Assembly (NCBI GenBank): GCA_905235565.1
Contig: CAJOLR010000011.1
Location: forward strand, 1 to 42,920
DNA length: 42,920 nt
Direction: 5' to 3'
Origin: an uncultured Bacteroidaceae bacterium
Lineage (GTDB): Bacteria; Bacteroidota; Bacteroidia; Bacteroidales; Bacteroidaceae
Positions 2,546 through 31,462 of the stretch are shown piece after piece (positions within the stretch are counted from its first letter, which is position 1; the number at the start of each line of letters is the position of its first letter). Under the pieces are notes generated by a model, which made no database searches, had not been told where the DNA came from, and saw only the letters and a list, made by a program, of their open reading frames with translations. The translations under genes were made by a program, and so were the position numbers.

Positions 2546-3346
2546 TCAGTTCTTGTACGGGAAACGGCGCTTGAGCTCTTCGCTGAACCAGTATTTCCAC
2601 CATTCCCGGTCATGACCGCCGTTGAACACCCAAGAGTTGACTTCTCCGCCTCGCTTACGGATATCCTTAATCAGGTTCGGAAAATAGTCTTCGTTTCCTA
2701 CCTCCTCTCTTATTCCCCAGCATATACGGTAAGATGTCGGCTCCGAAATCATACCGTAATCACTTATGTCTGAGCATATCGGCGAATAACACCAGTATTC
2801 CGGTATCAGTCCGGGATCGCGCAGACTCAGTGTTATTCCGAAATCGGCACTGTTGGATGTCCCGAAGTAGATCCTGTCAACGGGGTCTTTTGATACTGGG
2901 GCATTCTTTTGTATATAAGGTATAAACTCATTTACAAAGAATGAGTGATGGCTGTCAAACAGCCCGGCAAGCGTATTGTCATTTTTGGCTATCAGTTCTG
3001 CGTATTCTGCATTGCGGTACGCGATATTATAACCACTTACCTGATTCTTGTTTTCATACGAACATGCTATGATGACGGGGCGTATGTGGCGGTTTTCAAT
3101 CAAGGAATCCATCATGCTCTTGAATCGGCTATCCTTAAAAACCAGACCGTCACCCATATAGATGACCGGAAGCTTGTCATCGGACCTGATTCCCTGTGGT
3201 ATGTAAATGGCTCCTGAACGTACCATTCCGTCCTTGCAATTCATCTGAAATTCCTTGAAAACAGATTGATCTGTGGTCTTTACGCACGAGTTGAAGAGAC
3301 AAAAAGTGCAAATTGACAAAACCAGAAGTCTGAATGCGAATTTCAT
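2546..3346 (-). CDS. Lipoprotein alpha/beta-hydrolase, putative esterase (Esterase D/feruloyl-esterase-like)
   Basis: The 266-residue protein has an N-terminal lipobox-like signal (LFNSC, Cys near residue 21), so it is probably a lipoprotein. The alpha/beta-hydrolase layout is visible: an oxyanion-side strand (KLPVIYMGDG), a nucleophile elbow around Ser164 in YFGTSNSADF, and a C-terminal His245 in FNGGHDREWW. This resembles the PF00756 putative esterases that remove acyl groups (acetyl, feruloyl) or act in siderophore hydrolysis. The elbow reads G-T-S-N-S rather than the usual G-x-S-x-G. It is the first gene of a likely two-gene unit with the GH127 enzyme, which suggests deacylation of an arabinose-bearing glycan. 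Substrate unknown. Confidence 0.7.
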   Translation of the reverse strand: MKFAFRLLVLSICTFCLFNSCVKTTDQSVFKEFQMNCKDGMVRSGAIYIPQGIRSDDKLPVIYMGDGLVFKDSRFKSMMDSLIENRHIRPVIIACSYENKNQVSGYNIAYRNAEYAELIAKNDNTLAGLFDSHHSFFVNEFIPYIQKNAPVSKDPVDRIYFGTSNSADFGITLSLRDPGLIPEYWCYSPICSDISDYGMISEPTSYRICWGIREEVGNEDYFPNLIKDIRKRGGEVNSWVFNGGHDREWWKYWFSEELKRRFPYKN

Positions 3347-21288: not shown

Positions 21289-21323
21289 TTTGATTGCAAA
21301 TTGAAATATTCTGTTTATTTTTG
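21289..21323 (+). promoter_or_regulatory. Putative promoter upstream of the glmS leader
   Basis: TATTTTTG (21316-21323) matches TAnnTTTG. TTTG at 21289-21292 is 23 bases upstream, and ATTG at 21293-21296 is at the more usual 19. The leader ATG follows about 13-19 bases later. Confidence 0.55.
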
Positions 21324-21341
21324 CGACGATTTGAAATGATA

Positions 21342-21455
21342 ATGAAGGGAAAGGTTACATATAACTGTCTGTCTAACCAGATGAATGACAAGCAGAATCT
21401 GAATAATAATCAGGTTCCTGTTTCCCCGTGTTGTTTCACCAGTCGGATAATATGA
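21342..21455 (+). CDS. Asn/Gln-rich leader peptide of the glmS-purF-pyrG operon (putative attenuator)
   Basis: This is a 37-codon ORF (an in-frame ATG at 21336 would add two). Seven Asn and three Gln fall between residues 8 and 24, ending in NLNNNQ. The next residues are VPVSP...FTSR, and the NNQVP...F..R pattern recurs in the two other leaders at 26552 and 29557. The stop TGA is at 21453-21455. Its last codons (ACCAGTC, 21438-21444) can pair with GGCTGGT (21495-21501), the 5' arm of the downstream hairpin. It lies between a promoter and that hairpin, ahead of three glutamine amidotransferase genes. The N/Q run is less pure than in the other two leaders. The leader role is inferred from architecture. 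Confidence 0.65.
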   Translation: MKGKVTYNCLSNQMNDKQNLNNNQVPVSPCCFTSRII

Positions 21456-21489
21456 CGGAGATTTTGGAAATACTTATTGGATAATTTGA

Positions 21490-21522
21490 GTGAAGGCTGG
21501 TTCAGTTAGAATCAGCCTTCAC
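21490..21522 (+). terminator. Attenuator-type hairpin before glmS
   Basis: A 14-bp stem (GTGAAGGCTGGTTC with GAATCAGCCTTCAC, one G-U) around AGTTA. The following bases are CCCTTTATT, so the U-run is weak; termination may be partial or the stem may act on translation. A second small stem (CCTTT/AAAGG, 21524-21535) precedes the glmS ATG. Confidence 0.6.
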
Positions 21523-21541
21523 CCTTTATTAAAGGTTATTT

Positions 21542-23386
21542 ATGTGCGGAATTGTAGGTTATATCGGTAAACGACAGGCATGCCCGATACTGCTTAAGGG
21601 GCTCTCTCGCCTGGAATATCGCGGTTATGACAGCGCTGGTGTGGCGCTTATCAATGACAACGGCAATCTGGTCATTTACAAGACCAAGGGTAAGGTGGCA
21701 GACCTGGAACATGCCATAGAGGGTAAGGATATCAGCGGCAACGTGGGTATAGCACATACACGCTGGGCCACTCATGGAGAGCCCAACGACATCAACGCGC
21801 ATCCGCATTTCTCGGAATCCGGAAATCTGGCACTAATCCATAACGGTATCATAGAGAACTACCGCTCACTTAAGACCGGGCTCCAGAACCAGGGCTATCA
21901 CTTTAAGAGTGAGACCGATACGGAGGTGATAATCCAGCTTATCCAATACATCATGGACAGCCATTCAATCACTCTTGAGGAGGCTGTACCGCTGGCTCTG
22001 AACAGCGTGATAGGCGCATACGCCATAGTGATTGTGGATAAGACACAGCCAGGCCGTATGATTGCCGCCCGTAAGGGAAGCCCTCTTATAATAGGTGTGG
22101 GCGATGACGAGTTCCTTATAGGGTCCGATGCCACCCCGATCATTGAATACACGGACCGCGTGGTCTATCTGGGTGAGGAGCAGATAGCTTTCATAGAGCG
22201 CGGTAAGGAGCTTAAAATAACCGATTTACGAAGCGTTGAGCAGACAACTGTCATTAAGAAACTGGAACTTAACCTGAGCCAGATAGAGAAGGGCGGTTTT
22301 GCCCACTTCATGCTCAAGGAGATTCATGAGCAGCCAGATACCGCACGTACCGTAATGAACGGCCGCCTGCATCCGGAACTGGGAATAGTAAAACTGTCTG
22401 GTGTGATTGACCATAAGGAGCGCCTGCTCAAGGCCCGGCGTATCATCATTTGCGCCTGCGGAACATCGTGGCACGCAGCACTGATAGGTAAGTATATGAT
22501 TGAGGAACTTACACGCATTCCGGTTGAGGTGGAGTACTCATCGGAGTTCCGTTACCGCAATCCGGTGATCTATCCCGATGATGTGGTGATTGCCATATCA
22601 CAGTCAGGTGAGACGGCCGATACTCTGGCTGCCATGCAGCTGGCCAAGGCATCAGGGGCGTTCCTGTTCGGGATATGCAATGTGGTGGGTTCATCAATTG
22701 CACGTGCAGCCGATACCGGTTGTTACACTCATGCGGGCCCTGAGATAGGTGTGGCATCGACCAAGGCATTTACCGCCCAGGTCGAGACACTGTTGCTGCT
22801 GGCACTCAACATTGCGCAGGAGAAGGGTACCGTATCGGATGATCTACGGAAACGCATCATTGCCGAACTTCCGCGCATTCCCGCCAAGATTGAGAAGATT
22901 CTTAAGCATGACAAGCAGATATCCGAGCTTGCCAAGACATTTACATACGCGCACAACTTTATCTACCTGGGACGCGGTTACAACTATCCCATTGCCCTGG
23001 AGGGTGCCCTGAAACTCAAGGAGATATCGTACATCCATGCCGAGGGTTATCCCGCAGCCGAGATGAAACACGGACCGATTGCCCTGATTGATGAGGAGAT
23101 GCCGGTAGTGGTGATTGCCCCCAAGCGCGGCCATTATGACAAGATACTCAGTAACATACAGGAGGTAAAGGCACGTAAGGGCAGGGTGATAAGCATCGTG
23201 ACCGAGGGCGACAGGGACGTTAAGAGCATATCGGACTATTCGTTTGAGATTCCGGATACCGAGGAGTGCCTGGTCCCGCTGCTCAGTGTCATTCCGCTGC
23301 AGTTGCTGGCATATCACATAGCTATTGCCAAGGGGCGTGACGTGGACCAGCCTCGTAACCTTGCCAAATCAGTTACCGTTGAATAA
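21542..23386 (+). CDS. glmS: Glutamine--fructose-6-phosphate aminotransferase (isomerizing)
   Basis: The 614-residue protein matches GlmS over its full length. The N-terminal Ntn glutaminase domain begins MCGIVGYIGKRQACP with nucleophile Cys2 exposed after Met removal, and has HTRWATHGEPNDINAHPH and HNGIIENYRSL. Two SIS isomerase domains follow (CGTSWHAALIGKY, SQSGETADTLAAM, YNYPIALEGALKLKEISYIHAEGYPAAEMKHGP), ending in LAKSVTVE. It makes glucosamine-6-phosphate from fructose-6-phosphate and glutamine for cell-wall and LPS synthesis. It is the first structural gene of glmS-purF-pyrG and lies 19 bases after the attenuator-like hairpin. Confidence 0.96.
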   Translation: MCGIVGYIGKRQACPILLKGLSRLEYRGYDSAGVALINDNGNLVIYKTKGKVADLEHAIEGKDISGNVGIAHTRWATHGEPNDINAHPHFSESGNLALIHNGIIENYRSLKTGLQNQGYHFKSETDTEVIIQLIQYIMDSHSITLEEAVPLALNSVIGAYAIVIVDKTQPGRMIAARKGSPLIIGVGDDEFLIGSDATPIIEYTDRVVYLGEEQIAFIERGKELKITDLRSVEQTTVIKKLELNLSQIEKGGFAHFMLKEIHEQPDTARTVMNGRLHPELGIVKLSGVIDHKERLLKARRIIICACGTSWHAALIGKYMIEELTRIPVEVEYSSEFRYRNPVIYPDDVVIAISQSGETADTLAAMQLAKASGAFLFGICNVVGSSIARAADTGCYTHAGPEIGVASTKAFTAQVETLLLLALNIAQEKGTVSDDLRKRIIAELPRIPAKIEKILKHDKQISELAKTFTYAHNFIYLGRGYNYPIALEGALKLKEISYIHAEGYPAAEMKHGPIALIDEEMPVVVIAPKRGHYDKILSNIQEVKARKGRVISIVTEGDRDVKSISDYSFEIPDTEECLVPLLSVIPLQLLAYHIAIAKGRDVDQPRNLAKSVTVE

Positions 23387-23396
23387 ATCTGCAGAT

Positions 23397-24779
23397 ATGG
23401 AAGAGTTGCATCACGAATGCGGAGTGTTTGGCATTTACGGATTGGAGAATGCCGCACAGTATGCCTATTATGCGCTTCACAGCCTCCAGCACCGCGGTCA
23501 GCAGGGGTGCGGAATAGTATCGGCCGATGACCAGGGGCAGTTTCATCTGCACAAGGGTGCCGGTCTGGTAATAGAGATTTTCGGCTCCAGACATCTGGAT
23601 GAACTGACCGGCAACATAGCCATAGGCCATGTTCGTTATCCTACCACCAATGTAGGCGGACTGGAGAACATACAGCCGTTTACGTTCCATCATTATACAG
23701 GGAATTTTGCCATCGCGCACAACGGGAACATCATCAACTCCCGTGAACTGCGCATGTATCTGGAGCGTCGCGGCAGTCTGCTGCAGACCACATCGGACAG
23801 TGAGCTGTTTGCGCACCTTATCAAGAAGGATCCCACCGAGGAGGACCGCATAATAAACCTTATCAATGCCCTGAACATGATTGAGGGGGCATTCTCACTG
23901 GTCATAATGACTCCCAACCGTATCTACGCCTGCCGTGACAAATACGGATTCCATCCGCTCTCGATTGCAAAGTTGGGCGAAGGGTATGTGGTGGCCAGCG
24001 AGACCTGCGCATTCGACGCAATAGGAGCCGAATTCATGCGTGACGTCAATCCGGGTGAGATAATAACTATAGACCATCACGGAATACGCTCCAATGATTA
24101 TTCAAAGCTCCGCAGTAACCGTATGTGCGTGATGGAGTATATATACTTTGCGCGTCCGGACAGCGATATAGAGGGCTGTAACGTCCACTCGTTCCGTAAA
24201 TTGTCGGGCCGCCTGCTCTATGAGGAGCATCCTGTTGACGCCGATATTGTGGTGGGTGTGCCGGATTCAAGTCTGAGCGCCGCCATGGGTTATGCCGAGG
24301 CCAGCGGGATTCCATACGAGATGGGCCTGCTCAAGAACAAATATGTGGGGCGCACGTTCATTCAGCCTACGCAGGAGATGCGAGACAAGGGCGTCCGTAT
24401 GAAACTGTCGCCCGTGCGCAGCATAGTGAACGGCAAGCGCGTGATTCTTATTGACGATTCGATTGTGCGCGGCACCACATCGCGCCGCATAGTGGGTTTG
24501 CTGCGTGAGGCCGGGGCTACCGAGGTACATGTGTGCATTGCCAGTCCCAAATATGCTTATCCCTGCTATTATGGTGTGGATACTGGCACATCGGAGGAAC
24601 TTATCGGCTCAAGCCATTCCGTAGAGGAGATTTGTGATTATATCGGAGCTGACTCATTGTACTTTCTCTCATTGGAATCACTTTATAAGGCATCGGGCCG
24701 GGATATGGGCCGATGCGAACTCTGCACCGCCTGCTTTAACGGCGACTATCCCACAAACCTTTACAACCACAAAAGCTGA
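23397..24779 (+). CDS. purF: Amidophosphoribosyltransferase (glutamine PRPP amidotransferase)
   Basis: The start is placed at the ATG at 23397, 10 bases past the glmS stop, giving MEELHHECGVFGIYG; upstream in-frame codons overlap glmS and are rejected. The 460-residue product has a short 7-residue propeptide before catalytic Cys8, as in the Bacillus-type enzyme that is cleaved to expose Cys. The phosphoribosyltransferase domain shows VILIDDSIVRGTTSRR (PRPP loop). The C-terminal cysteines (CELCTACFNGDYPTNL) suggest the 4Fe-4S class. It catalyses the first committed step of purine synthesis using glutamine. Confidence 0.95.
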   Translation: MEELHHECGVFGIYGLENAAQYAYYALHSLQHRGQQGCGIVSADDQGQFHLHKGAGLVIEIFGSRHLDELTGNIAIGHVRYPTTNVGGLENIQPFTFHHYTGNFAIAHNGNIINSRELRMYLERRGSLLQTTSDSELFAHLIKKDPTEEDRIINLINALNMIEGAFSLVIMTPNRIYACRDKYGFHPLSIAKLGEGYVVASETCAFDAIGAEFMRDVNPGEIITIDHHGIRSNDYSKLRSNRMCVMEYIYFARPDSDIEGCNVHSFRKLSGRLLYEEHPVDADIVVGVPDSSLSAAMGYAEASGIPYEMGLLKNKYVGRTFIQPTQEMRDKGVRMKLSPVRSIVNGKRVILIDDSIVRGTTSRRIVGLLREAGATEVHVCIASPKYAYPCYYGVDTGTSEELIGSSHSVEEICDYIGADSLYFLSLESLYKASGRDMGRCELCTACFNGDYPTNLYNHKS

Positions 24780-26393
<1,614 letters not shown>

Positions 26394-26397
26394 TAGT

Positions 26398-26417
26398 TTG
26401 CAGAATGCTGCAATTTT
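26398..26417 (+). terminator. Possible weak terminator after pyrG
   Basis: TTGCAG pairs with CTGCAA around AATG, followed by TTTT. The stem is short, so confidence is limited. Confidence 0.4.
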
Positions 26418-26513
26418 GCAAGTTGTGGTTTCTAAATGTTTTAATTTTTGGAGATTTGATAGAAAAAAGTGAAATTTCTGCGTTATTTGTGAACATGGTA
26501 TTAAAATGATGCT

Positions 26514-26521
26514 TATCTTTG
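26514..26521 (+). promoter_or_regulatory. -7 box of the P-II/amtB leader transcript
   Basis: TATCTTTG is an exact TAnnTTTG match. A TTTG at 26486-26489 is 24 bases upstream, longer than the usual spacing. The 11-base string GAAACAAGATA (26533-26543) in the 5' UTR recurs at 29547-29557 ahead of the asnB leader. Confidence 0.6.
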
Positions 26522-26551
26522 CGGCAGAAATTGAAACAAGATAGCAGTTTT

Positions 26552-26671
26552 ATGTTTATCGGACTTAAGAATATAACCGCTGTGCTGAACAATAATAATC
26601 AGCAGCAGAATAATCAGAACCAGAACAATCAGGTTCCGATGGTTATACCTTTTGACCGGTCAGGTATGTAA
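26552..26671 (+). CDS. Asn/Gln-run leader peptide of the P-II-amtB operon (putative attenuator)
   Basis: This is a 39-codon ORF. Residues 13-27 are fifteen consecutive Asn/Gln (nine Asn, six Gln), followed by VPMVIPFDRSGM and a TAA stop. All Gln codons are CAG; Asn is AAT or AAC. The bases GACCGGTC (26654-26661, codons D-R-S) can form eight pairs, two of them G-U, with GGCTGGTC (26702-26709), the 5' arm of the terminator that follows. A ribosome reaching the stop codon would cover the first segment. One waiting at the Asn/Gln run, more than 20 bases upstream, would leave it free to form the antiterminator. Function as a leader is inferred; the peptide itself probably has no role. Confidence 0.8.
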   Translation: MFIGLKNITAVLNNNNQQQNNQNQNNQVPMVIPFDRSGM

Positions 26672-26699
26672 CTGTCAGTTTAAATAAGTAGAGAATTAT

Positions 26700-26731
26700 A
26701 AGGCTGGTCTATTTGAGACCGGCCTTTTTTT
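26700..26731 (+). terminator. Attenuator terminator before the P-II gene
   Basis: An 11-bp stem (AAGGCTGGTCT with AGACCGGCCTT) around ATTTG, followed by a long T run. It stands between the leader stop and the P-II ATG, so it must be read through for P-II and amtB expression from this promoter. Confidence 0.85.
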
Positions 26732-26780
26732 GTTTTACGATGCATCAAAACACAATAATTAACCTCAAAACAAAACACAA

Positions 26781-27128
26781 ATGAAAAAGATTGAAGCAAT
26801 CATCCGGAAAACCCGGTTTGAAGATGTGAAGGAGGCGCTCTTTGAGGCCGACATCAACTGGTTCTCTTACGCAGAGGTTCATGCCATAGGTCAGGACCGT
26901 CAGGACCGCATATACCGTGGCGTGATGTACAGCACTGATATCATTTCACGTATAGAGATAACCATTATATGCCGTGATCAGTTTGTACAGCCTGCCATCG
27001 ATGCCATAATGGGTGCGGCTCGTACAGGTCAGGTGGGCGACGGACGCATATTTGTGAGTCCTGTTGATGACACATGGTCAATCCGTACCGGTGAACACGG
27101 TGATACGGTTCTGGCCGACAAAAAGTAA
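26781..27128 (+). CDS. P-II family nitrogen regulator (GlnK-like)
   Basis: The 115-residue protein begins MKKIEAIIRKTRFEDVKEAL and ends in the P-II nucleotide loop TGQVGDGRIFVSPVDDTWSIRTGE, so membership of the P-II family is clear. The T-loop (IGQDRQDRIYRGVMY) keeps the tyrosine at the position uridylylated in enteric proteins, but appears one residue shorter than E. coli GlnB and lacks the GRQKG motif. The Lys of TGKIGDGK that contacts 2-oxoglutarate in E. coli aligns with Arg. Such changes are plausible for the Bacteroidetes amtB-linked type. It should trimerise and control AmtB, encoded 28 bp downstream, according to nitrogen and energy status. Confidence 0.9.
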   Translation: MKKIEAIIRKTRFEDVKEALFEADINWFSYAEVHAIGQDRQDRIYRGVMYSTDIISRIEITIICRDQFVQPAIDAIMGAARTGQVGDGRIFVSPVDDTWSIRTGEHGDTVLADKK

Positions 27129-27156
27129 AACTGTTAAATTATTGAATTATTGAATT

Positions 27157-28401
27157 ATGGAAGACATTATTACAACAGTAAGTGAGAGTAGCATAAGCGG
27201 ACTGGATACAGTCTGGGTATTGATAGCAGCTATGCTGGTGTTCTTTATGCAGCCCGGTTTCGCGCTGGTGGAGGCAGGTTTTACCCGTTCCAAGAACACG
27301 GCTAACATACTGATGAAAAACTTTGTGGATTTCATGGTGGGATCCTTCCTTTTCTGGATGATAGGTTTTGGTCTGATGCATGGTGCCAACAACGGATTCA
27401 TAGGTGGTCTGCATCTGTTTGACTGGTCGTTCATAGGCGACTCAAACGTTCCTGCAGAGTGTACGCTGATATTCCAGACAGTATTCTGCGCCACTGCCGC
27501 TACTATAGTATCGGGCGGTATGGCCGAGAGAACCAAGTTCTCTATGTACGTTCTTATTTCAATCATCATTTCCGTGATTATCTATCCCATTGAGGGTCAC
27601 TGGTCCTGGGGAGGCGGATGGCTGAGCGAGCTTGGTTTCCATGATTTTGCAGGTTCCACAGTTGTGCACTCTTGCGGTGGTGTGATTGCACTGGCAGGAG
27701 CAATGGTACTTGGTCCCCGTATCGGTAAGTATTCCAAGACAGGCGAATCACGCGCTATTCCCGGTCACAACCTGACATTCGGCGCCCTGGGCGTGTTCAT
27801 CCTCTGGTTCGGATGGTTTGGTTTCAACCCCGGTTCACAGCTGGCTGCCGAAGGTGCTGAGAACGCAATCGCAATATCTCACGTAATGTGCACAACCAAC
27901 ATGGCAGCCGCCACAGGAGGACTTTCGGTCCTGTTCCTTACTTGGCTGGTATACGGCAAACCTTCACTCTCGCTGTTGTGCAACGGCATCCTGGCAGGTC
28001 TGGTAGGTATCACAGCCGGTTGCGACCTTGTTTCAATTGGTGGTTCGGCCATTATCGGTGTTGTTTGCGGCGTAGCGATGGTGGGATCGGTTGCCTTTAT
28101 TGATAAGGTCTGCAAGATTGATGATCCCGTCGGTGCTGTATCAGTTCACGGAGTGTGCGGTATCCTGGGTACACTGATGACCGGAATGTTTGCCGTGGAC
28201 GGTGGTCTGTTCTATGGTGGCGGCTGGCACTTTCTGGGTGTTGAGGCTCTCGGGTCGCTTGTAACCATTTGCTGGTCATTCGGTCTCGGACTGCTTACAT
28301 TCGTTATCCTCAAGAAGGTTCACGGTATCCGCGTGGAGCCCAGAGTCGAGGAGGAGGGTCTGGATATCTATGAGCACGGCGAAACAGCCTATAATATCTA
28401 A
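27157..28401 (+). CDS. amtB: Ammonium transporter
   Basis: The 414-residue protein has eleven likely membrane helices and the Amt signatures: FFMQPGFALVEAGFTRSKNTANILMKN, DFAGSTVVHSCGGV (first conserved pore His), LWFGWFGFNPGS, and VHGVCGILGTLMTG (second pore His). It conducts ammonium across the inner membrane. There is no N-terminal signal extension. Pairing with P-II immediately upstream is the classic glnK-amtB arrangement. A TorF-like porin gene follows after 200 bases that contain a long hairpin. Confidence 0.95.
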   Translation: MEDIITTVSESSISGLDTVWVLIAAMLVFFMQPGFALVEAGFTRSKNTANILMKNFVDFMVGSFLFWMIGFGLMHGANNGFIGGLHLFDWSFIGDSNVPAECTLIFQTVFCATAATIVSGGMAERTKFSMYVLISIIISVIIYPIEGHWSWGGGWLSELGFHDFAGSTVVHSCGGVIALAGAMVLGPRIGKYSKTGESRAIPGHNLTFGALGVFILWFGWFGFNPGSQLAAEGAENAIAISHVMCTTNMAAATGGLSVLFLTWLVYGKPSLSLLCNGILAGLVGITAGCDLVSIGGSAIIGVVCGVAMVGSVAFIDKVCKIDDPVGAVSVHGVCGILGTLMTGMFAVDGGLFYGGGWHFLGVEALGSLVTICWSFGLGLLTFVILKKVHGIRVEPRVEEEGLDIYEHGETAYNI

Positions 28402-28403
28402 AA

Positions 28404-28417
28404 TGACCCAAAAGGGT
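28404..28417 (+). terminator. Small hairpin just after amtB
   Basis: GACCC-AAAA-GGGTC then TGTTTC; a weak terminator or processing site. Confidence 0.3.
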
Positions 28418-28435
28418 CTGTTTCAAATAGTACTT

Positions 28436-28565
28436 TAATTGAAAGCCGGGACATGAGATACAGGAGTTTGTTTGACCCGAATTTGATTCGTATTTAAAAT
28501 CTTTACTATGTCCATAATGCATGGGGAGAATGAATCCCTGAATCCTGTGGTCCGGCTTTCAATTA
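28436..28565 (+). other. 130-base imperfect palindrome / long RNA hairpin between amtB and the porin gene
   Basis: Bases 28436-28479 pair with 28522-28565 without bulges: 14 uninterrupted pairs at the base (TAATTGAAAGCCGG with CCGGCTTTCAATTA), then about 24 of 30 further positions, eight of them G-U. The loop is 42 bases. A 14-codon ORF (ATG at 28453) and a weak promoter-like TTTG (28482) lie inside. It could be a regulatory RNA structure controlling porin expression, or a MITE-like palindromic element. Confidence 0.6.
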
Positions 28566-28601
28566 TTTATCTAAAACAATAACCATAAACATTTTATAAC
28601 T

Positions 28602-29294
28602 ATGAAAAAGATTATATCAATAGCAATGACATTGATAGCAGCGGTCTGCCCGTTGCACGCAGAGATTGAAACAACAGTAGGTGCCGATATAGTTAGCCGA
28701 TATATCTGGCGCGGATGCGATCTTGGTGGGGCGGCAATACAACCTACACTTGGCGTTGGTGCAGCCGGTTTTGACCTGACACTCTGGGGCAGCACCGGAA
28801 TAGTTGACTGGACCGATACAAAAGAGTTTGACATAACTCTCAGTTATGGTGTAGCCGGATTGAGCGTTGGTGTTACCGATTACTGGTTCAACGCAGGACC
28901 GGAGCCTTACGGACGTTATTTCAAGTATGGAAAAGAGACTACCAACCATTTGTTTGAGGCATTTGTTGGGTATGATTTCAGTTTCGCCTCAATAACCTGG
29001 AATACCAACTTTGCAGGCAATGACTTTAAGGCCGATGGAAGCAGCGCTTTCAGCTCCTATTGTGAACTGGCTGCTCCTTTCAGCCTGGGCGGAGCGGAAT
29101 GGACCGCATCATTGGGCTTTGTCCCGTTTGAAAGCCCGTTGTACGGAACCGATGGCTTTGCTGTAACCAATATCTCTCTGACAGGCTCTAAGGAACTTGG
29201 CATAACCGGGAGTTTCAGTCTGCCGATATCGGCCGGACTGACAATTAATCCCTGCACGGAGATGGCATATCTTGTATTTGGCTTCTCTTTCTGA
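28602..29294 (+). CDS. TorF family putative outer-membrane porin
   Basis: The 230-residue protein has a signal peptide (MKKIISIAMTLIAAVCPLHA) and then alternating hydrophobic/polar beta strands ending in an aromatic C-terminus (VFGFSF), typical of an outer-membrane barrel. The start VGADIVSRYIWRGCDLGG matches the TorF/TIGR02001 signature (D-x-x-SxYxxRG). In other bacteria such genes lie next to ammonium transporters, as here, and are presumed to form small-solute channels. Transport of ammonium or amines is inference from context. Confidence 0.78.
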   Translation: MKKIISIAMTLIAAVCPLHAEIETTVGADIVSRYIWRGCDLGGAAIQPTLGVGAAGFDLTLWGSTGIVDWTDTKEFDITLSYGVAGLSVGVTDYWFNAGPEPYGRYFKYGKETTNHLFEAFVGYDFSFASITWNTNFAGNDFKADGSSAFSSYCELAAPFSLGGAEWTASLGFVPFESPLYGTDGFAVTNISLTGSKELGITGSFSLPISAGLTINPCTEMAYLVFGFSF

Positions 29295-29297
29295 TAG

Positions 29298-29371
29298 GAA
29301 CTGCCGGTCATCGGCAAGAAGGGGAATGAGATTTATGTGGTTGATAACGCCAATGCTCTGGATGTAATTTG
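29298..29371 (+). pseudogene. Possible gene remnant downstream of the porin gene
   Basis: In the same frame as the porin, after the tandem stops TGA TAG, a 24-codon open stretch reads protein-like (ELPVIGKKGNEIYVVDNANA, then LDVI and a stop). No start codon precedes it. It may be the tail of a decayed gene or chance. Apart from this, 29295-29502 holds only AT-rich spacer with nothing recognised. Confidence 0.25.
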
Positions 29372-29502
29372 AGTCAGCATACAGCTCCGTATGAAATACT
29401 AAGAAATACATGACTAATTGATGTATATAATGAACGAATTCTGACTATTTATCGGAATTATTGAATTATTTGCGTTAGAATGATATTTTTATTGAGATTT
29501 TG

Positions 29503-29533
29503 TTTGGCGGATAGAAAATAGTGCTTAAATTTG
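29503..29533 (+). promoter_or_regulatory. Promoter of the asnB leader transcript
   Basis: TTTG (29503-29506) and TAAATTTG (29526-29533) are exact -33/-7 elements with a 19-base gap, the best promoter match in the window. GAAACAAGATA (29547-29557) follows, as in the P-II leader. Confidence 0.75.
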
Positions 29534-29556
29534 CACTCAAATTAGTGAAACAAGAT

Positions 29557-29661
29557 ATGGCTAAAGTTTTGGCATACGCCAATAATAATCAGAATAACCA
29601 GAATCAGAACCAGAATAATCAGGTTCGGATGGTTACTTCTTTTGGCCAGCGGGAAAGCTAA
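29557..29661 (+). CDS. Asn/Gln-run leader peptide of asnB (putative attenuator)
   Basis: This is a 34-codon ORF. Residues 9-22 are fourteen consecutive Asn/Gln (nine Asn, five Gln), then VRMVTSFGQRES and a TAA stop. The tail aligns with the P-II leader tail (VPMVIPFDRSGM). TTGGCCAG (29642-29649), in the codons S-F-G-Q just before the stop, can form eight pairs (one G-U) with CTGGTCAA (29697-29704), the 5' arm and first loop bases of the terminator. Compared with the P-II leader, both partner sequences differ, yet pairing is kept. A leader reading Asn codons before an asparagine synthetase gene is the classic logic of amino-acid attenuation. Confidence 0.82.
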   Translation: MAKVLAYANNNQNNQNQNQNNQVRMVTSFGQRES

Positions 29662-29690
29662 TCATTCAGGGTATATAAATAACAAAACAT

Positions 29691-29724
29691 AAAAGACTGG
29701 TCAATTTGATCAGTCTTTTTTTTG
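29691..29724 (+). terminator. Attenuator terminator before asnB
   Basis: A 12-bp stem (AAAAGACTGGTC with GATCAGTCTTTT, one G-U) around AATTT and a T run of eight. It lies 44 bases before the asnB ATG. Confidence 0.87.
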
Positions 29725-29767: not shown

Positions 29768-31462
29768 ATGTGTGGAATAGTTTCAATCTTCAGGATTAAG
29801 CAGCAGTCGGAGCAGTTACGTCAGCAGGCTCTTGAGATGAGCCGCAGGATTCGTCACCGCGGTCCCGATTGGAGCGGCATCTGGTGCGGAGGCTCTGCCA
29901 TACTGGCTCATGAGCGCTTGAGTATTGTAGATCCCGAGTCGGGCGGTCAGCCCCTGTTCAGTATGGACCGTCTGCAGGTGCTGGCCGTAAACGGAGAGAT
30001 ATATAACCATCAGGCTATACGCCGGGAGTATGAGGGCCGATACGCGTTCAGTACCGGCAGCGACTGCGAGGTGATACTTGCGCTGTACCGTGATGCAGTG
30101 CGTGCAGGCGGCAGCCAGGAGGACTATATCCGCATGCTGGAGCGCCTGAACGGCATTTTTGCATTTGCCCTGTATGATGCCGAGCGTGACGAGTATCTGA
30201 TTGCCCGTGACCCGATAGGCGTTATACCTTTATATATAGGAAAGGACAAGGAGGGGCATATCTGCGTGGCAAGTGAGCTTAAGGCGCTGGAGGGAATCTG
30301 CACTGAGTACGAGCCTTTCCTGCCGGGACATTTCCTGAGCAGCCGCACGGGATTGGTGGAGCGCTGGTACACCCGCGACTGGTTCAAGTATGATGCCGTC
30401 AAGGACAACAAGGCCGATGTGCAGGAACTTCGAGGCGCCCTTGAGGCAGCCGTTAAGCGTCAGCTGATGTGCGATGTGCCTTACGGAGTGCTGCTCTCCG
30501 GCGGTCTGGACAGTTCGGTCATATCGGCCATAGCAAAGAAAAACGCTGCCCGCCGTGTTGAGACCGACGATAAGCAGGAGGCCTGGTGGCCGCGTCTGCA
30601 CTCGTTTGCAGTCGGCCTTAAAGGTGCGCCTGACCTGGCCAAGGCGCGTGAGGTGGCCGAGCATATAGGTACCGTACACCATGAGATCAACTACACCGTC
30701 CAGGAGGGCCTTGATGCCATCCGCGACGTGATATATTTCATAGAGACTTATGATGTCACTACCGTGCGCGCCAGCACTCCCATGTACCTTCTTGCCCGCG
30801 TTATACGCAGCATGGGTATCAAGATGGTGCTGAGCGGTGAGGGTGCCGATGAGGTGTTTGGTGGCTACCTCTATTTCCACAAGGCTCCCGATGCCCAGGC
30901 GTTCCATGAGGAGACCGTGCGCAAGCTTTCCAAGCTTCACCTCTATGACTGCCTGCGTGCCAACAAGTCACTGGCTGCATGGGGCGTTGAGGGTCGCGTG
31001 CCGTTCCTGGACAAGGAGTTCCTGGATGTGGCAATGCGCATGAACCCTGAGGCCAAGATGTGTCCGGACAGGGAGATTGAGAAGCGTGTTGTACGTGAGG
31101 CTTTTGCCGATATGCTGCCGGAGGGTGTCGCATGGCGTCAGAAAGAGCAGTTCAGCGACGGAGTGGGTTACAGTTGGATAGACTCACTCAAGGAGATAAC
31201 ATCGGCCGCAGTTACTGATGAGCAGATGGCTCATGCGGCAGAGCGTTTCCCCATAAACACACCTATGAACAAGGAGGAGTACTACTACCGCTCAATATTT
31301 GAGGAGCATTTCCCGAGCCAGTCTGCAGCACGTTGCGTACCCAGTGTTCCAAGCGTTGCCTGCTCTACCGCCGAGGCACTCAAATGGGATGCAAGTTTCA
31401 GCAAACTGAACGATCCCAGCGGTCGTGCGGTAAAGGGTGTGCATGAAAATGCCTACAAATAA
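29768..31462 (+). CDS. asnB: Asparagine synthase (glutamine-hydrolysing)
   Basis: The 564-residue protein starts MCGIVSIFR with nucleophile Cys2 of the class II glutaminase domain, and carries RHRGPDWSG and AVNGEIYNHQ. The synthetase domain has the PP-loop YGVLLSGGLDSSVISAI and SGEGADEVFGGYLYF. Length agrees with E. coli AsnB (554). It makes asparagine from aspartate, ATP and glutamine. It appears monocistronic, with its own leader and attenuator-like terminator upstream. The C-terminal ~30 residues (after FPSQSAARCVPS) are a typical AsnB tail. Confidence 0.95.
   Translation: MCGIVSIFRIKQQSEQLRQQALEMSRRIRHRGPDWSGIWCGGSAILAHERLSIVDPESGGQPLFSMDRLQVLAVNGEIYNHQAIRREYEGRYAFSTGSDCEVILALYRDAVRAGGSQEDYIRMLERLNGIFAFALYDAERDEYLIARDPIGVIPLYIGKDKEGHICVASELKALEGICTEYEPFLPGHFLSSRTGLVERWYTRDWFKYDAVKDNKADVQELRGALEAAVKRQLMCDVPYGVLLSGGLDSSVISAIAKKNAARRVETDDKQEAWWPRLHSFAVGLKGAPDLAKAREVAEHIGTVHHEINYTVQEGLDAIRDVIYFIETYDVTTVRASTPMYLLARVIRSMGIKMVLSGEGADEVFGGYLYFHKAPDAQAFHEETVRKLSKLHLYDCLRANKSLAAWGVEGRVPFLDKEFLDVAMRMNPEAKMCPDREIEKRVVREAFADMLPEGVAWRQKEQFSDGVGYSWIDSLKEITSAAVTDEQMAHAAERFPINTPMNKEEYYYRSIFEEHFPSQSAARCVPSVPSVACSTAEALKWDASFSKLNDPSGRAVKGVHENAYK

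Follow-up and report, generated by a model that had tools for sequence, protein, structure and literature searches.

Why should a cluster of nitrogen-assimilation genes carry, three times over, a short open reading frame (ORF) crowded with asparagine and glutamine codons and followed by a hairpin? The question is raised by a contig of 42,920 nucleotides (nt) from an uncultured Bacteroidaceae bacterium (CAJOLR010000011.1, assembly GCA_905235565.1; the whole stretch is referred to here as the window), in which leader ORFs of 34-39 codons with runs of Asn (N) and Gln (Q) codons, each then followed by a hairpin, lie upstream of glmS, glnK-amtB and asnB. From sequence comparison we propose, with a probability of roughly 0.85, that these leaders are ribosome-mediated transcription attenuators of nitrogen genes. 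The comparison shows the leader, the terminator, a conserved pairing core, covariation of a stem-loop that we call P1, and the association with particular genes; from these we infer translation, stalling, a pseudoknot and the direction of control.

Three Asn/Gln-rich leaders in one nitrogen cluster

In a survey of 902 ORFs of 12-90 codons on both strands of the window, the three leaders rank at the top for N/Q density, with 10, 10 and 7 such residues per 10, the next ORF reaching 5. A TAnnTTTG box, which we take to be the Bacteroidetes -7 promoter consensus, stands just upstream of every one of the three. Their hairpins start 28-37 nt past the leader stop codon, and 40-50 nt separate the putative antiterminator segment in the tail of each ORF (S2) from the terminator arm that it can pair with. 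Good U-tracts follow the glnK and asnB hairpins, and the glmS leader peptide recurs in near-identical form in relatives. An earlier annotation of the window, made from its letters without database searches (the first-pass annotation), had described three N/Q leaders with a -7 box, tail-arm pairing, a 40-50 nt spacer and a hairpin, and this description was borne out in the sequence. As a whole its observations were partly confirmed and its interpretation was partly supported, as set out where the results bear on it.

Leaders of this type precede nitrogen genes in two families

The first-pass annotation had read the leaders as a dispersed regulon that senses Gln and Asn by translation, and had called for a covariance-model search. 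We built such a model (R1) from an alignment of 29 leaders (A1) found next to nitrogen genes in genera g1, g22 and g30, in a second family and at locus L023. Matches from the trained groups are not independent; outside the training lie the g15 leaders, the g22 gltB leaders and the second-family amtB-asnB leaders. Across 301 genomes of the window's family, R1 gave 59 matches at E ≤ 1e-6, in 29 genomes and 4 of 30 genera, and 14 of the 21 genomes in the window's genus had one. All 59 lie 9-363 nt upstream of a Gln, Asn or ammonium gene, as identified by tblastn with the window proteins: glnK (21), asnB (14), glmS (7), gltB (5), pyrG (4), tor230-glnK (4), glnN (3) and purF (1), where tor230 is our working label for a 230-residue protein also encoded in the window. 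The second family (f19, in Bacteroidales; one metagenome-assembled genome in it is named Salinivirgaceae) has matches at E ≤ 1e-5 in 2 of 7 genera, with 2-4 matches in each of 10 of the 11 genomes of one genus and a single weak match in another. Here 28 of 28 assessable matches, out of 30, precede a glnN-gltB, tor230-glnK-amtB or amtB-asnB operon; of the remaining pair, one lies at a contig end and one is a weak match for which no locus was retrieved. The core of the sensing idea thus passed the test of gene association in both families; its Gln part did not extend to the second family, whose leaders hardly hold that residue.

Within the window's own assembly (2.2 Mb, 91% complete), R1 returned exactly the three window leaders, at 121.6, 116.3 and 87.7 bits, and the scan found no fourth. 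The proposed dispersal therefore held for some relatives, in which leaders are spread over several contigs, and failed for the genome that had prompted it, where they form one cluster. The next match, at 29.3 bits, is an N/Q-rich stretch in a 691-residue frame (L087, contig C3, ~65.9 kb, minus strand), the C-terminal part of which appears by reading to be Rho. Apart from the three leaders, four places in this genome were examined and rejected, three inside long frames (582, 691 and 426 residues) and one antisense to a long frame; a looser pattern adds a His-rich match in a short frame of contig C6, which is not a leader by R1.

A phylum-wide distribution was likewise rejected: of 395 genomes, only the window's own gave a match at E ≤ 2e-7 and stricter filters. 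The scanned loci of Bacteroides and Prevotella yielded no clear leader. A further 29 glnK loci from the order include one with a clear leader (L153) and three more with only weak 5-of-9 ORFs nearby, while seven of 33 amtB loci from named genomes (L003-L007, L023 and L031) show a leader at a nitrogen gene. A loose threshold of E ≤ 0.05 was discarded, being reached in 346 of 393 genomes of the order; of 29 loci inspected at this level (L183-L211), only L183 and L184 carry leaders at a nitrogen gene.

A conserved antiterminator pairing and a covarying terminator

In every window leader a tail segment is complementary to the 5′ arm of its own hairpin. We compared 34 distinct tail/arm pairs from the window and its relatives (43 leaders) with dinucleotide-shuffled tails, and the duplex was better at p<0.05 in 25 of them. 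The claim of the first-pass annotation that differing but matching segments amount to covariation within a single genome did not survive. Exchanging arms between leaders proved no worse than keeping them (mean -12.7 kcal/mol for a leader's own arm and -12.4 after a swap; the observed value was matched in 4215 of 20000 permutations), because CC(A/G)G is common to all tails and C(T/C)GG to all arms. A further claim was a protector stem of the 1:2 type formed by TGGTT in the glnK and asnB tails. It is absent outside the glnK/asnB class and is not conserved, and in these two leaders the predicted partner of TGGTTA is the stop-codon region, not the antiterminator.

What is conserved is the pairing itself. 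S2 forms 5-9 base pairs (bp) with the terminator 5′ arm in all 53 distinct leaders and at least 6 bp in 52 of them; a 4-bp core was a search requirement, and the remaining pairs were not. In A1, 84.5% of S2 cells are paired, as against at most 41.2% in slid controls. The central pair is G-C in the L133 purF and L023 glnK leaders and A-U in most others. The core sits in all three codon frames across leaders (GAC-CGG, ACC-AGT and CCA-GCC) and is therefore selected as RNA, not as peptide. For the terminator covariation is clear: 98.3% of cells are paired in A1, with 25 double-change cells as against 10.1 after shuffling (0 of 500 shuffles). An intrinsic terminator thus lies between each leader ORF and the first gene, with a weak U-tract at glmS, and a pairing that would exclude it is conserved, without overall covariation. 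At L146, L147 and L148 the interval between the asnB or glnN leader and the gene holds another terminator-like hairpin, also of the GGCTGG type (GAAAGGCTGGC...GCCAGCCTTTC), an arrangement that suggests tandem attenuators.

A stem-loop that presents the antiterminator core

For most subtypes, folding of the stretch from the N/Q run to the terminator (56 leaders; the tests below use smaller selections) gave a hairpin overlapping the ORF end, with the core in its loop. This stem-loop, P1, had been overlooked in the first-pass annotation and differs from a 1:2 protector in that it holds the segment in the loop; in the glnK leader its 3′ strand is predicted to span the leader stop codon. The stems differ strongly in sequence among subtypes: TTGTTC/GGACAA (pyrG), CGTGTTGTTT/GGATAATATG (glmS), CCTGCCT/GGGCAGG (L269), GTTTATCAGTT/GATTGATAGAT (L146), GTCCAT/ATGGAC (gltB), GCCC/GGGC (second family) and TGATGCTT/GAGCATTG (L006).

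To assess covariation, 33 distinct 24-nt segments with the core CC(A/G)G(T/C)C were aligned on that core. Of the cells of a 6-bp stem 72.7% are paired, as against at most 57.6% in slid registers, and double-sided changes occur at all 6 pairs, which 6 of 500 shuffles reach. There are 36 double-change cells as against 12.2 in shuffles, with a covariation score of 0.50 as against 0.28 (0 of 500 each). Reduction to one sequence per subtype (18) left 75.0% of cells paired, 23 double-change cells as against 8.2 and a score of 0.61 as against 0.29 (0 of 500). In a register-free test of 20 subtypes, two of them asnB-type, 7 reached p<0.05, with a combined p of 3e-6.

The P1 loop is ~8 nt long and has the form NNCC(A/G)GYC, of which the six right-hand bases pair with G(G/A)C(T/C)GG of the terminator arm; throughout this YC class the Y:R and C:G pairs are retained (36 of 36). 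In the H-type pseudoknot layout the 3′ part of a hairpin loop pairs downstream, leaving a 2-nt left part. The YC class (33 segments, 18 subtypes) displays a conserved stem whose loop holds the pairing bases, and because these bases lie at the 3′ side of the ~8-nt loop, the antiterminator is probably an H-type pseudoknot.

Asn as the common control residue

Leaders of the window's family (51, with 2099 residues) consist of 22.7% N and 14.7% Q, whereas nine window genes hold 3.6% and 2.8%, an enrichment of ~6-fold and ~5-fold. In 16 leaders of the second family N makes up 31% of residues, ~9-fold over the same genes, and Gln only 9 of 584. Since these leaders are Asn-rich and nearly devoid of Gln, Asn is the common control residue. 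The codon chosen is also distinctive. In the window's family AAT accounts for 375 of 477 leader Asn codons and 43 of 612 in neighbouring genes, and in the second family for 146 of 181 and 79 of 680; the odds ratios are ~49 and ~32 in counts that include related leaders, the neighbours using AAC. Other NNY codons in the leaders favour a final T in the first family (418:216) and do not in the second (54:70), and in both families the preference is stronger for Asn. A rare, wobble-read AAT would sharpen sensitivity; a simpler alternative is that AAT may keep the run unstructured.

The window's own genome has matches above cut-off to the asparaginyl- and glutaminyl-tRNA synthetases (AsnRS and GlnRS), and GatB was not found in it. 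Both tRNAs should therefore be charged directly, and charging should consequently follow free Asn and Gln.

A model for attenuation, objections and alternatives

We envisage that RNA polymerase would transcribe the ORF with its Asn/Gln codons, then P1, which overlaps the ORF end, and then the intrinsic terminator. With ample charging of Asn- and Gln-tRNA, the ribosome would reach the stop codon and cover or melt P1, leaving the terminator 5′ arm free for its 3′ arm, and transcription would stop. At low charging the ribosome would stall in the N/Q run, the CC(A/G)G downstream would stay exposed, and this core would form its 5-9 bp with the terminator 5′ arm so that no terminator arises. Read-through would then allow transcription of genes for ammonium uptake, glutamine synthetase/glutamate synthase (GS/GOGAT), Asn synthesis and Gln-using amidotransferases; it is predicted to increase with a shortage of Asn (or Gln). 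In contrast to trp, the model would have read-through occur when the leader is not translated.

The spacing agrees with such a scheme. From 88 matches, 16 were dropped (15 by too strict a stem rule and one without an ORF) and the rest collapsed to 69 rows, used for spacing and codon frame only. Between the last N/Q codon and the segment there are 15-30 nt in 48 of the 69, and in 58 the distance from the segment's end to the end of the stop codon is 2-14 nt; these counts include rows with a wrong core (four glmS of phase 0 in the window's family, three from g15, and L143_pyrG). In g15 and L007 the segment lies just past the stop codon. Given the usual size of a ribosome footprint, these distances would leave the segment free on a stall and covered at the stop codon. 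A parallel for the direction of control comes from Prevotella ruminicola, where amtB, glnK, asnB, glnN and gltBD change 27- to 69-fold with ammonium; the available part of PMC5552732 states this as induction under ammonium limitation, and its later sections word the condition oppositely. Because of this discrepancy, and because the Prevotella loci scanned are without a clear leader, the induction is only an analogy. For the wider proposal, that charging of Asn- (and Gln-)tRNA is the nitrogen signal in Bacteroidales, read by a cis leader at each operon with a pseudoknot antiterminator and the locally rare AAT as control codon, we consider the odds about even.

Several observations weigh against attenuation as we propose it. 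S2 covariation in A1 is not above shuffles, and what covariation there is lies at the margins only (k=-2 and k=6, reached by 4 and 1 of 1000 shuffles). The U-tract after the glmS hairpin is poor (CACCCTTTATT). The P1 covariation set excludes leaders of the asnB type, 17 of the 53 distinct ones, in which other bases follow the core. In stability P1 alone is modestly above shuffles, with z<-1 in 17 of 56 leaders and a mean z of -0.6 in f1 and +0.5 in f19; folded with the core held open it reaches p<0.05 in 5 of 42. Given these modest folding scores, the case for P1 rests on its covariation. P1 is weak in some subtypes (L148, L144, L246 and the window asnB leader), and in the window glnK and asnB leaders it begins 4-5 nt past the N/Q run, so that its formation would be blocked by a ribosome stall on the last codons. 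The run of the L143 asnB leader is cut by an early stop (minus strand, ~2974-3039). No match at E ≤ 1e-6 was obtained for seven of the 21 genomes in the window's genus (G050, G070, G088, G119, G189, G255 and G267), although four of these are at least 90% complete; their leaders may have been lost or replaced by another control, or contigs may be missing. Finally, the scanned Prevotella loci show no clear leader, though Prevotella shows induction. As to L143, its early stop falls ~30 nt before the antiterminator segment, unlike in other asnB leaders, and may be an assembly error or mark a decaying leader.

The position of P1 in the window glnK and asnB leaders bears on an alternative that is possible, if rather doubtful: a classical 2:3 antiterminator in which P1 is an anti-antiterminator that holds the segment when no ribosome is present. 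A ribosome stalled on N/Q codons would then block the P1 5′ strand, as its distance of 4-5 nt from the run would permit, and free the segment, giving the same output with the opposite role for P1. The glnK segment, part of which falls within the inner stem, would suit such hiding; in most subtypes, however, P1 leaves exactly the pairing bases open in the loop, which is wrong for it. It is improbable that, in place of tRNA charging, Gln, Asn or some other ligand is sensed in the ribosome tunnel by an arrest peptide. Within the window's genus many leaders of glnK and asnB keep the motif NNQV(P/R/L)M(V/I), which would suit such a peptide, but run length and N/Q order vary, the tails are unrelated in other genera, and the AAT preference would be superfluous for a peptide sensor. 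More improbable again is a pseudoknot riboswitch in which P1 and S2 bind glutamine directly, in the manner of the known glutamine riboswitches, and the ORF is secondary. A terminator-competing pseudoknot is known from the fluoride riboswitch (PMC12288461, in the part available); in the window, by contrast, no Rfam match reaches its gathering score, a search of the three leader loci at E ≤ 1 gave only weak, sub-threshold resemblance to the L20 leader, no conserved pocket-like sequence was seen outside the pairing core, and the N/Q run would be left unexplained. That these are ordinary short genes and inter-operon terminators, with the N/Q run a product of low-complexity drift, is scarcely credible, for although each part alone is common, loose-threshold matches abound in the order and 27 of the 29 inspected lack such a leader at a nitrogen gene, the strict matches all precede nitrogen genes, with regular spacing and covariation of both P1 and terminator. 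Ribosome-mediated attenuation with the core presented in the P1 loop is the reading we retain.

The nitrogen cluster and its features

By Pfam and NCBIfam annotation the nitrogen cluster comprises the window genes from 21542 to ~41.8 kb, in the order glmS, purF, pyrG, glnK, amtB, a gene for a 230-residue protein, asnB, glnN, gltB, gltD, dapF and LL-diaminopimelate aminotransferase; the glnN product is a type III glutamine synthetase. Coordinates are collected in Table 1.

Table 1. Leader elements and principal genes of the nitrogen cluster, in window coordinates.
Feature	Position	Strand	Basis or remark
glmS leader -7 box TATTTTTG	21316..21323	+	sequence
glmS leader peptide ORF, 39 codons	21336..21455	+	MIMKGKVTYNCLSNQMNDKQNLNNNQVPVSPCCFTSRII; N/Q-rich stretch 21375-21413
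glmS leader P1 stem-loop	21427..21454	+	loop 21437-21444 (CACCAGTC) carries the antiterminator core
glmS antiterminator segment S2 ACCAGTC	21438..21444	+	putative partner 21495-21501 (GGCTGGT)
glmS leader terminator hairpin	21493..21519	+	sequence; weak U-tract behind
glmS	21542..23386	+	Pfam SIS and GATase; gene that the first leader would regulate
glnK leader -7 box TATCTTTG	26514..26521	+	sequence
glnK leader peptide ORF, 39 codons	26552..26671	+	...NNNNQQQNNQNQNNQVPMVIPFDRSGM; N/Q run 26588-26632 (15 codons); family alignment
glnK leader P1 stem-loop GATGGTTATA / TGTAACTGTC	26638..26676	+	predicted fold; encloses the antiterminator segment
glnK antiterminator segment GACCGGTC	26654..26661	+	putative partner 26702-26709 (GGCTGGTC)
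glnK leader terminator hairpin	26700..26726	+	U-tract behind
glnK-amtB	26781..28401 (glnK 26781-27128, amtB 27157-28401)	+	Pfam P-II, Ammonium_transp
asnB leader -7 box TAAATTTG	29526..29533	+	sequence
asnB leader peptide ORF, 34 codons	29557..29661	+	...NNNQNNQNQNQNNQVRMVTSFGQRES; N/Q run 29581-29622 (14 codons)
asnB leader P1 stem-loop	29627..29667	+	predicted fold; encloses the antiterminator segment
asnB antiterminator segment TTGGCCAG	29642..29649	+	putative partner 29697-29704 (CTGGTCAA)
asnB leader terminator hairpin	29691..29719	+	U-tract behind
asnB	29768..31462	+	Pfam; gene that the third leader would regulate
glnN (31613), gltB (33836), gltD (38385)	3′ of asnB	+	Pfam

The 230-residue product of 28602-29294 (tor230) has no Pfam or NCBIfam match. 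Its gene adjoins glnK-amtB in many relatives and is the first operon gene behind the leader in some. In P. ruminicola a gene for an unknown membrane protein accompanies glnK-amtB-asnB and changes 58-fold with ammonium, according to the part of PMC5552732 that is available. The interval between amtB and the 230-residue gene (28438-28564) contains, by eye, a near-perfect inverted repeat (ATTGAAAGCCGGGAC ... GTCCGGCTTTCAAT) with arms ~100 nt apart. It lacks a clear U-tract and may be a bidirectional element or serve in processing.

Comparison with known systems

A T-box or known riboswitch, including those for glutamine, was rejected for the window, which has no Rfam match at gathering score. The best match is L20_leader at the glnK leader (L212 1504-1635; 27.8 bits where 58.7 are needed, E 0.037), and a weaker resemblance occurs at asnB (L182, 22.4 bits); it is probably a chance product of hairpin and U-tract. 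Known glutamine riboswitches are the glnA RNA and the Downstream-peptide motif, the latter a pseudoknot. The leaders share with them nitrogen genes and a small RNA element and differ in that Rfam gives no match and sensing appears to fall to a translated N/Q ORF.

Closer in layout is the LEU element upstream of leuA in Actinobacteria, which, in the available part of PMC1262725, combines a leader ORF with regulatory codons and a conserved pseudoknot candidate, as our leaders do. In the LEU element a base stem joins the leucine run to the Shine-Dalgarno box of leuA, whereas here the loop pairs with the terminator arm; the amino acid there is leucine instead of Asn/Gln. Within the phylum, leader-peptide attenuators have been reported or suggested for amino-acid operons of Flavobacterium psychrophilum (PMC9723704), and small ORFs in 5′ untranslated regions of Bacteroides thetaiotaomicron hint at leader peptides (PMC7366714). 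Both share phylum and general mechanism with our leaders; the available text of the two papers, their supplementary lists aside, names no Asn/Gln leader or nitrogen regulon. Nor did we recognise such a leader in the available parts of PMC2965389, PMC4833913, PMC1262725, PMC8632094 and PMC1183508. In the literature searched overall no Asn/Gln attenuator or nitrogen regulon of this kind was recognised, and a 2010 survey of classical attenuation (doi 10.1134/S0026893310010164) may list one.

To our knowledge the control of nitrogen assimilation in Bacteroidetes, which are dominant in gut and rumen, is poorly explained; elsewhere it is exerted by regulators of the NtrC, TnrA or NtcA type. In its available part, PMC5552732 names no regulator beyond P-II. 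It appears that nitrogen-assimilation genes of some gut and rumen bacteria are turned on through ribosomes stalling at Asn/Gln codons just upstream, and the genes that the leaders precede, in various genomes, serve ammonium uptake, GS/GOGAT, Asn synthesis and Gln-dependent amidotransfer. If this is true, a translation-coupled RNA switch that reads Asn/Gln supply would provide nitrogen control in several genera, and would do so without a dedicated protein regulator.

Ribosome-mediated attenuators include the trp, his, leu, ilv, phe and thr leaders, and not every such attenuator has a 1:2 protector helix. The upstream ORF of cysS is a further example of a ribosome-mediated amino-acid attenuator (PMC8632094, in the part available). 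Our leaders resemble the classical amino-acid attenuators in their control-codon ORF, terminator, alternative pairing and a ribosome-covered segment at the stop codon, and they would work like a trp, his or leu attenuator, the tested defining features being present except for the 1:2 protector. They differ in using Asn (and Gln) codons, in their targets (ammonium uptake, GS/GOGAT, AsnB and amidotransferases), and in placing the antiterminator in a conserved hairpin loop in place of a plain 2:3 helix, with no general 1:2 protector. If our reading is true, the amino acids that leader attenuators are known to sense would come to include Asn/Gln, and their known layouts an antiterminator in a hairpin loop (pseudoknot).

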